Source: Clostridia bacterium (GTDB lineage: Bacteria > Bacillota_A > Clostridia > Christensenellales > CAG-138). Taken from it: DNA of 6,611 nucleotides. Shown here piece after piece: positions 2,449 to 6,611 of the stretch. The notes beneath the pieces were generated by a model that saw only the letters and a program-made list of their open reading frames with translations, made no database searches and was not told the origin of the DNA. The first letter of the stretch is position 1. Each line of letters starts with the position of its first letter. Where the stretch lies: NCBI GenBank assembly GCA_017459315.1, contig JAFUDD010000227.1, forward strand, positions 1 through 6,611, given 5' to 3'. The position numbers and the translations under genes are program-made.

Positions 2449-3618
2449 TTATGAATGGAGCAGCTCCCAGTAATTCGGCTCCTGAAAATCCAGTAAAACG
2501 GTATTCAAAAGATCCAGTCCCCGAACGTTTAGGCGAAGACAACGCGGATCGCTTTCGTCCCAAAGTCCACGTCGGCGGTTGCGTTCAATGGCTTCGGGAT
2601 ACGTCTCGAATATGCCGACGCCGAAGCGTTTGCGAAACGCTTCATCCTCTACGCCCTCCACAAGGCGCAGACCGAGCATGATACATTCAAACATCTGCTC
2701 GAATGTGTTGATTAAAATTCGCTCGCTTTCGGGCAGCCTACCCTTCGCAAGTGATTTCATATATGCCGGAATCGTTTCCGGATTGGCGAAGCGATACTGT
2801 TTCGTCCCCTCCCGCATCGACGAATGTGCGGCGACGCCGAAGCCGAGGTACGGTTCATTGTGCCAATAGGTCAGATTGTGGCGGCAGGCATAACCCGGCT
2901 TTGCGAAGTTGGATATTTCGTAGCGATCATAGCCGCGTTCCTTTAGATACGCCATGCCCGCATCCTGCATGTCCGCCACCGCGTCCTCGTCGGGCAGCGT
3001 TTCCCGTCTCGCCGTCACATCGCGGTACAGGGGCGTTCCCTCCTCCAAGATCAGCGAATATGCCGAGATATGCTCCGGCGCAAGGTCGCAGACGGTTTGC
3101 AGCGTGGCAAGATAGTCCGCCTGTCTTTGCCCCGGCAAACCGTGCATCACATCGACGTTGATGTTTGCAAAGCCTGCCTCCCTCGCCCATTCGTAGGTGT
3201 GCAGAAAATCCCGATACGTATGCACGCGGCCGATGCGCCGCAAAAGTGCATCATCGGCGCTTTGCAAACCGACGGAAAGACGGTTGAAGCCTGCCTGACG
3301 AAGAGTTTTCAGTGCGCTTGCGTCGGCGGTCTTGGGATTGCATTCGATGCTGATTTCCGCATCGGCTGTCAGCGGAAACGCGCGGTCTGCAGCTTCCAAA
3401 ATGCGGCACAGATCGGCCGTAGGCAGGATCGTCGGGGTTCCGCCGCCGAAAAATACGGTAGCGGCTTGCTCATTCGGGTACTGCTTTTTCCGTAGTGCTA
3501 TTTCGGAAAGCAGCGCATCACAATACCGGCCTGCGGTTTCATCCACGGGAAAGGAACAGAAATCACAGTACCGGCATTTACGAATACAATAAGGAATGTG
3601 AAAATACAGCGCGATCAT
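2449..3618 (-). CDS. hemW: Heme chaperone HemW (radical SAM, HemN-like)
   Basis: This is a radical SAM protein of the HemW group, often mislabelled oxygen-independent coproporphyrinogen III oxidase; characterised members bind heme and deliver it to respiratory enzymes. The length, 389 residues, is usual. The 4Fe-4S motif is C11-x3-C15-x2-C18 with a further Cys21 ([12 protein letters not shown]), then GGGTPT (58-63) for SAM binding, SIECNP (90-95), RLSVGLQS (113-120), DVMHGLPGQ (156-164) and the HemW-type HNLTYW (247-252). The HemN C-terminal domain follows, about 300-375. The ATG at 3618 overlaps the lepA TGA (ATGA) and no SD is visible upstream, so translation is probably coupled to lepA. 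The HNxxYW motif and the lepA-hemW setting favour HemW over true HemN. It ends with TAA. Confidence 0.94.
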
Positions 3619-4529
3619 CCGTTGATGCGAAGGACGCTCATGAACGCGTCGGACGGGACGGACACGGAGCCGACCTGCCGCATACGCTTCTTGCCCTCCT
3701 TTTGCTTTTCAAGCAGCTTCTTCTTGCGCGTGATATCGCCGCCGTAGCACTTGGCCAGAACATCCTTGCGGACAGCCTTGACGGTTTCACGGGCGATGAT
3801 CTTGGAGCCGATTGCCGCCTGAATCGGGATCTCAAACTGCTGACGCGGGATAACGTCCTTGAGCTTTTCGGCAACGGCGCGACCCTTGTTATAGGCGCGA
3901 TCCTTGTGCACGATTGTCGAAAGCGCATCGCACATCTCGCCGTTCAGCAAAAAGTCGAGCCGCACAAGGTCGCTCTTTTCATAGCCGCAAATTTCGTAAT
4001 CAAACGAAGCATAGCCGCGACTGCGGGATTTCAGGCTGTCGAAGAAATCATAGATGATCTCATTCAGCGGCAGCGTATAATGCAGATTGACACGCCCCTC
4101 CTCAATGTAGGTCATATCATGGAAGATGCCGCGATTATTCTGGCAAAGCTCCATGATCGTGCCCACATACGCCGACGGGGTCATGATGGTCGCCTTGACC
4201 ATCGGCTCCTCCATATGCTCGATCTCCGCCGCGCTCGGCAGATTGGAGGGGTTGTCGATAACGCTCTCCTGCCCGTCGAGCGTGAACACGCGATAGGCAA
4301 CGCTCGGCGAGGTTGTAACAAGATCGAGGTCAAACTCCCGTTCGAGACGCTCGGTGATGATCTCCATGTGCAATAGGCCGAGGAAACCGCAGCGGAAGCC
4401 GTAGCCAAGCGCCACGGACGTTTCATGCTCATAGACAAGCGAAGCGTCGTTCAGCTGCAATTTATCGAGCGCATCCTTTAGGTCGTTATAATGCGCGCCG
4501 TCGGCAGAATAGATGCCGCAATAGACCAT
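3615..4529 (-). CDS. lepA: Elongation factor 4 (LepA), C-terminal part downstream of in-frame TAG
   Basis: This reading frame continues the lepA frame after the TAG at 4544-4542 without any shift. From the first ATG after the stop (4529, codon 298 of the whole gene) it has 304 codons. It holds domains III and V and the LepA-specific C-terminal domain: [71 protein letters not shown] [15 protein letters not shown], then [20 protein letters not shown] and [12 protein letters not shown]. All are well preserved with no other stop, which argues against old decay. No SD precedes 4529, so separate translation would need reinitiation about 12 bases after the TAG or read-through. Without the N-terminal GTPase domain it could not work alone. 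It ends with TGA, overlapping hemW. Confidence 0.85.
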
Positions 4530-4541
4530 CGGGTTGACATG

Positions 4542-4544
4542 CTA
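4542..4544 (-). other. In-frame amber codon (TAG) at codon 293 of lepA
   Basis: The minus-strand frame reads GAG CCG CTG CCC GGC TAT TAG CAT GTC AAC (EPLPGY-stop-HVN). In LepA this is the conserved ALPGF/PLPGY-KKV stretch, so TAG stands where a lysine is usual. AAG to TAG is one transversion, and CAG to TAG one transition. Frame is kept on both sides, so no insertion or deletion is needed to explain it. The site is the linker between domains II and III. It may be an assembly or sequencing error, a recent nonsense mutation, or a read-through or recoding site; the sequence alone does not decide. Confidence 0.9.
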
Positions 4545-5420
4545 ATAGCCGGGCAGCGGCTCCTTGGCGGGATTGTCGGCTGTCGTGAACGTATCGCCCA
4601 CCTTGGTTTCGGCAACGCTCTTGATGGATGCGGAAATGTAGCCGACCTCGCCTGCGGACAATATGTCGACAGGCTTCCATGTCGGAGCGAACACGCCGAC
4701 CTCGGTCACGTCGAATTCGTTGCCGGTCGCCATCGACTTGATGCGCGAGCCTGCGCGCACTTCACCGTCGAACACGCGGACATAGGACACCGCGCCTTTA
4801 TAATTATCATAGAGGCAGTCGAAAATCAGCGCCTTCAGCGGCGCTTTAAGATCGCCGGTCGGCGCAGGCACGGTATCGACAATCTTGGCAAGCACCTCGC
4901 TGACATTAAAGCCGGTTTTGGCAGAGATACATGGTGCATCCTCCGCCGGAATCCCAATGATATCCTCGATCTCATGCACAACACGCTCCGGTTCGGCGCT
5001 CGGCAAATCGACTTTGTTGATGACCGGCAGCACCTCGAGACCGTTGTCCACCGCAAGGTAGACATTGGCGAGCGTCTGCGCCTCAATGCCCTGCGTCGCG
5101 TCCACAACAAGCACCGCGCCCTCACAGGCGGCGAGTGCGCGGGAAACCTCATAATTGAAGTCTACGTGACCCGGCGTGTCGATCAGGTTAAACATATAGG
5201 TCTTGCCGTCGGTATGATGATAAAACATGCGTACCGCAGAAGCCTTGATCGTAATACCGCGCTCGCGCTCGATATCCATGGAGTCCAAAAGCTGCTCCTC
5301 CATGTCCCGCTTGGCAACGGTATCGGTGAGCTCCATCATGCGGTCCGCAAGAGTGGACTTGCCGTGGTCGATATGAGCAATAATCGAAAAATTACGAATC
5401 AATGAAAGGTCGTATTCCAT
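4542..5420 (-). CDS. lepA: Elongation factor 4 (LepA), N-terminal part ending at in-frame TAG
   Basis: LepA/EF4 is a ribosome-associated translational GTPase linked to back-translocation and 30S assembly. This part has 292 residues; with the TAG read as an amino acid the whole locus (5420-3615) gives 601 residues, the normal family length. The GTPase domain shows AHIDHGKST (15-23, P-loop), RERGITI (52-58, switch I), DTPGHVDF (81-88), NKVD (135-138) and SAKTG (166-170). Domain II follows (about 190-290), ending EPLPGY. The ATG at 5420 was chosen because GGAGG (5430-5426) lies 5 bases upstream and the protein then begins [14 protein letters not shown], as in the family; the upstream in-frame start at 5486 would sit within the promoter. 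The gene leads a lepA-hemW transcript. The halves are too well conserved for an old pseudogene. Confidence 0.9.
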
Positions 5421-6168: not shown

Positions 6169-6611
6169 TTATACGAGTATCAGTACATAGCGATACAGCC
6201 ACATCTTCCATTTCGGCAAAGCGTGTACCTTGCCTTGTGCAGCGCGGACAAGGGCAAGCATGACCTTGCGCTGCTCCTGCATCGTATGGTCGGAATAGGC
6301 AGCTTCTTCAGCCAAATCAAACGCCTGTTCCTCTTCATGCGGAATGCCGAACCGCTGCAGCCAAAGCAGATAGCGGTACATGGCAAGAACGGCTTTTTTC
6401 GCATTCTTCTGGCAGAAAGCTTGCTCGCGCTTTTGACGAATCAGCTTGCCTGCGCAATAGAATCCACCGACGATGGCGGGCGGCACCAACAGCCACAGCA
6501 GCCACCAAAGGTTCAGCGGCTCGGACGGTTCGACTTCCGGCTCCTCCGGATTGTGCGGCGGTTCATCCGGCGCGGTCGGTGTCGGTGTGGGCGTCGGGGT
6601 CGGGGTGGGCG
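6169..6611 (-). CDS. C-terminal part of a membrane protein with Pro-Thr linker; possibly transglutaminase-like
   Basis: The last 147 codons of a gene entering from the right edge are seen; no start is in the window. In order: a Pro-Thr repeat (PTPTPTPTPTAPD), an acidic proline-rich stretch (DEPPHNPEEPEVEPSEP), one membrane segment (LNLWWLLWLLVPPAIVGGFY), a positive stop-transfer region (KLIRQKR), then about 85 mostly helical residues including AVLAMYRYLLWLQRFGIP and ending VLILV. The positive-inside rule places the Pro-Thr part outside and the tail in the cytosol. Clostridial transglutaminase-like membrane proteins end this way (extracellular catalytic domain, Pro-Thr linker, membrane segment, DUF4129-like tail with a Y-x-x-x-L-x-x-x-G pattern), but the catalytic part is missing here, so this is an inference. 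The stop is TAA at 6171-6169. Confidence 0.8.
   Translation of the reverse strand, partial: PTPTPTPTPTPTAPDEPPHNPEEPEVEPSEPLNLWWLLWLLVPPAIVGGFYCAGKLIRQKREQAFCQKNAKKAVLAMYRYLLWLQRFGIPHEEEQAFDLAEEAAYSDHTMQEQRKVMLALVRAAQGKVHALPKWKMWLYRYVLILV
6574..6609 (-). repeat. Pro-Thr codon repeat (low-complexity coding repeat)
   Basis: Alternating CCN and ACN codons give a degenerate 6-base repeat on the minus strand that continues to the window edge. Codon choice varies (CCG, CCC, ACC, ACA, ACG), so it is not a pure microsatellite. It encodes the flexible linker next to the membrane segment of the partial gene. Confidence 0.85.

Follow-up and report, generated by a model that had tools for sequence, protein, structure and literature searches.

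A single in-frame TAG in an otherwise ordinary clostridial lepA: very probably an isolated, very recent nonsense change under the standard genetic code

The window, i.e., the whole stretch of 6,611 nucleotides that we analysed (contig JAFUDD010000227.1 of the Clostridia bacterium assembly GCA_017459315.1, presumably a contig of metagenomic type), contains seven genes. The list of open reading frames and the Pfam matches identify lepA, a radical SAM gene that is presumably hemW, the 5' part of dnaK, grpE, hrcA, a gene for a LUD-domain protein, and a last open reading frame at the edge. The features most relevant here are the following.

2449..3618, minus strand: hemW-like radical SAM gene (Pfam Radical_SAM and HemN_C)
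3615..5420, minus strand: lepA (elongation factor 4), 601 residues plus TGA, a 602-codon frame with a single interruption
3615..4529, minus strand: downstream half of lepA, an open reading frame of 304 residues with domain III, EFG_C and LepA_C (open reading frame list and Pfam)
4542..4544, minus strand: in-frame TAG at lepA codon 293, next base C (frame reading)
4545..5420, minus strand: upstream half of lepA, 292 residues with the GTPase domain and domain II (Pfam)
6172-6609, minus strand: open reading frame with no Pfam match; its beginning, at the edge of the window, is a Pro-Thr repeat

The lepA TGA and the ATG of the hemW-like gene share the bases ATGA (3615-3618), an overlap which suggests that the translation of the two genes may be coupled. 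By eye, what looks like a perfect CIRCE operator, the site of HrcA, lies at 2301-2327, just upstream of hrcA (TTAGCACTC, 9 bases, GAGTGCTAA). ARAGORN found zero tRNA genes in the window. A search with the whole window matched it in pieces to four genomes (G005, G008, G022 and G023), the large pieces at 74-80% identity. One related locus (L001) has lepA-hemW and hrcA-grpE-dnaK together on a single stretch, arranged in the order of the window.

The original prediction described a lepA frame that is open from 5420 to 3615 save for one TAG at codon 293, with two halves that both look like LepA. The TAG is indeed the sole internal stop in a frame of 601 residues, and Pfam domains are found on either side of it. 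GTP_EFTU (residues 8-185) and GTP_EFTU_D2 (209-279) match before the stop, EFG_C (403-487) and LepA_C (492-598) after it, all over the Pfam cut-offs; EFG_III (296-369) is matched weakly, with 22-24 bits against a cut-off of 27 bits. The order of domains in LepA/EF4 (GTPase, domain II, domain III, EFG_C, LepA_C) is complete, with EFG_III below its cut-off, and the TAG comes after the Pfam match of domain II and before that of domain III. The top structural relative is an elongation factor 4 (PDB 5imq_B, E 2.5e-233, residues 3-598). The gene thus resembles known LepA proteins (PDB 5imq, 2ywe, 3cb4) in domain order, in its length of 601 residues and in a match over residues 3-598; it differs from them by the in-frame TAG, which breaks the uninterrupted frame of a regular LepA/EF4 gene. 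As an open reading frame, the downstream half begins at an internal ATG 12 bases past the TAG, near which no Shine-Dalgarno-like sequence is seen by eye. The next base after the TAG is a C, as predicted. The other genes give the picture that had been announced: the ends of six genes can be seen, and five of these (grpE, hrcA, hemW, the LUD gene and the last open reading frame) stop at TAA and lepA at TGA, and the 2,075 codons of the seven window genes hold no in-frame stop besides the TAG in lepA.

Codon 293 is a sense codon in all the related lepA loci that were aligned. The position was said to be normally lysine, and the alignment with relatives that had been proposed as a check bears this out: lysine is present in 73 of 112 related lepA loci, arginine in 33 and methionine in 6, and a stop at codon 293 in none. 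(These 112 were counted from 118 loci; the six left out equal in number the release-factor loci L081-L086. At least one locus, that of genome G001, occurs twice among the 112, as L001 and L103.) By eye, the eight best proteins have lysine (seven) or glutamine (one) at this position. The nearest protein among the best 120 of 7,997 scored is the translation elongation factor 4 of a Clostridia metagenome-assembled genome (P0002, 601 residues), which is uninterrupted. It differs from the LepA of the window at three of 601 residues: 171, 293 (stop in the window, lysine in P0002) and 305 (serine in the window, proline in P0002). The longest contig of the P0002 genome has 2,331 bases. Other sources were more distant. 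Among the relatives of G005, lepA was found in 94 of 151 genomes at E 1e-200 with a DNA identity of at most 85%, so there is no same-species genome among them. A viral collection, tried as a source of near-identical lepA, gave 10 loci, the best of them 68% identical, and was useless for this purpose.

Sporadic stops of the same kind do occur in the lepA of such genomes. The gene is found at E 1e-100 or better in 187 of the 201 genomes around G001 (14 lack such a match). The matches listed number 150 by our hand count, some of them partial (the other 37 of the 187 lie outside the list), and among these 148 have no internal stop and two have one: a TAG at codon 521 (window numbering) in genome G076 (L117), and a TGA at codon 497 in genome G149 (L118). 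The RF1 of G076 scores over the family cut-off. Since at least two of the 150 listed matches are interrupted, at other codons than in the window, a case like this one is not without precedent. Moreover, 170 of the 5,400 possible single substitutions in the lepA of the window create a stop, so a single event of this kind can be expected without any particular cause.

The codons downstream of the TAG have been under about the same constraint as those upstream. When residues 1-292 and 294-601 were compared separately with three close loci, the silent and replacing codon differences were 119 and 15 before the stop and 111 and 15 after it (L087), 141 and 18 before and 126 and 17 after (L088), and 109 and 20 before and 112 and 14 after (L089). 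The stop is thus either recent or not real. There is a weak hint of the latter. At 477 positions, 18 close loci all agree, and the window deviates from them at residues 263, 293 and 305; P0002 lacks the changes of the window at 293 and 305, whereas residue 263 is not among the differences between the two proteins. The private changes at 293 and 305, 12 codons apart, could reflect a local error in the consensus. Against this, we estimate that about one in eight sets of three random differences would be spaced as closely, and a comparable test of other close loci gives each of them between 0 and 8 private changes, where the window has 3. By eye, another protein (P0003) differs from the near-identical P0009 by four substitutions, all within residues 293 to 315, where the window has the TAG and Ser305; this cluster may itself consist of consensus errors.

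How TAG is decoded was studied in relatives, whose lepA DNA is at most 85% identical to that of the window. The idea that this organism reads TAG as sense, by reassignment (as in genetic code 15) or pyrrolysine insertion, draws on the UAG that interrupts a frame open elsewhere and on the lack of TAG at the six visible gene ends. This lack means little, because at a TAG use of about 15% it has a chance of about 0.38 by our own arithmetic. This usage was estimated from non-overlapping frames of at least 250 codons in genome stretches (mechanical frames rather than gene calls), where TAG ends 17 of 114 long open frames in G022 and 9 of 61 in G005; TAG thus serves as a terminator in the stretches of two relatives, and occurs in frame only once in the 2,075 codons of the window genes. 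Of 21 related genomes, 20 have an RF1 above the family cut-off, as do all 3 genomes of another set (G001 is common to both); these genes carry no internal stop, and the copy of G017 is partial. In the remaining genome, G007, the sole match stays below the cut-off and is similar in size to the second matches found elsewhere; these second, weaker release-factor matches, including that of G007, are probably RF2. Several of the weaker matches have one internal stop, TAA or TGA (e.g., G005:C69:9596-10630). RF2 is known to use a programmed frameshift, which is perhaps what these stops represent.

The enzyme PylS gave no match over its cut-off (178) in any of the 21 relatives, with partial matches of about 19 bits in 10 of them; among 14 named genomes that served as a control, one exceeded this value. 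A pattern for tRNAs with a CUA anticodon, which presumes a standard T loop, matched 25 times in 20 possibly incomplete genomes (4 matches in 3 genomes and 21 in 17 further ones, 16 of which had a match), and no such tRNA was seen among these matches, a result obtained with a pattern that has no positive control. ARAGORN identified 17 of the 25 as tRNA-Arg(TCT) (2 of the 4 and 15 of the 21), and six, all from the set of 21, lie at loci with no tRNA; of the other two from the set of 4, both at contig ends, one is a string identical to the Arg genes and the other, by eye, a cut tRNA-Glu. Chance matches are common, since the control with the backwards pattern matched more often than the CUA pattern itself. 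The stretches of G022 (about 259 kb) yielded a single tRNA with ARAGORN and those of G005 (about 109 kb) none; being parts of genomes, they are uninformative on tRNAs. A genetic-code screen names, in the portion of the article available to us, no UAG reassignment in Clostridia (PMC8629427). The window thus differs from organisms that decode UAG with pyrrolysine or code 15 in that its relatives have no PylS over the cut-off, have RF1 in 20 of 21 cases and use TAG as a stop, and a sense meaning of TAG in this organism is extremely improbable.

There are two other explanations. The UAG could be read through or suppressed at some rate, by a near-cognate or suppressor tRNA in the UAG-C context, yielding some full-length LepA. 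The original prediction had left room for this, stating that a C after the stop is reported to weaken termination, and the remainder of the frame is intact. Programmed readthrough should come with a stop that is conserved among relatives, and this is the case in 0 of 112 lepA loci. The fold of the 90-base segment that starts at the stop is no more stable than that of shuffled sequences (z 0.37; 125 of 200 shuffles are equally or more stable), and the hexamer after the stop does not fit CARYYA, a readthrough motif. With these observations, and with no PylS over the cut-off in the 21 relatives and no CUA tRNA seen among the pattern matches, the readthrough alternative finds no support. We regard it as very unlikely, and equally so that the strain puts up with UAG here, or suppresses it in part, and sets its level of LepA by stop-codon readthrough. 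Slightly less probable still is a LepA made of two chains, in which translation would reinitiate at the ATG 12 bases past the stop and the parts would then assemble. The stop lies in the gap that separates the Pfam matches of domains II and III, which fits such a split, as do the in-frame ATG shortly after it and the existence of separate C-terminal proteins that begin at or next to the same methionine (11 were read). The internal ATG has, by eye, no Shine-Dalgarno-like sequence close by, and none of the seven N-terminal proteins of half length ends at residue 292: they overrun it or drift into unrelated residues. Their ends resemble contig ends or frame breaks, and the starts of the C-terminal proteins may do so too. 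These proteins are the 18 of 240 listed matches that were read, chosen for a length near 300. A gene split at codon 293, for which the two halves were searched separately, was not found among them.

We therefore consider it very probable that the lepA of the window is an ordinary one that follows the standard genetic code and carries a single, isolated nonsense change of very recent date. The original prediction had ranked one error or mutation above readthrough, and this preference is upheld by the uninterrupted P0002, the absence of a stop at codon 293 in 112 loci, the RF1 of 20 in 21 relatives and the TAG terminators of two relatives. The change has about an even chance of being a consensus error in the contig, which is slightly likelier than a real nonsense allele of the strain. 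If the allele is real, translation would end after residue 292, giving a fragment with the GTPase domain and domain II that lacks the C-terminal domains, and the function of LepA would be lost or nearly so. Through the overlap of the two genes, a real stop might also lower the translation of hemW by polarity. E. coli, at least, tolerates such a loss (PMC4245954).

The case mostly calls for caution: it is not rare that one contig shows a lone in-frame stop (at least two among the 150 listed lepA matches), and claims of recoding call for evidence from RF1, from tRNAs and from multiple genes.
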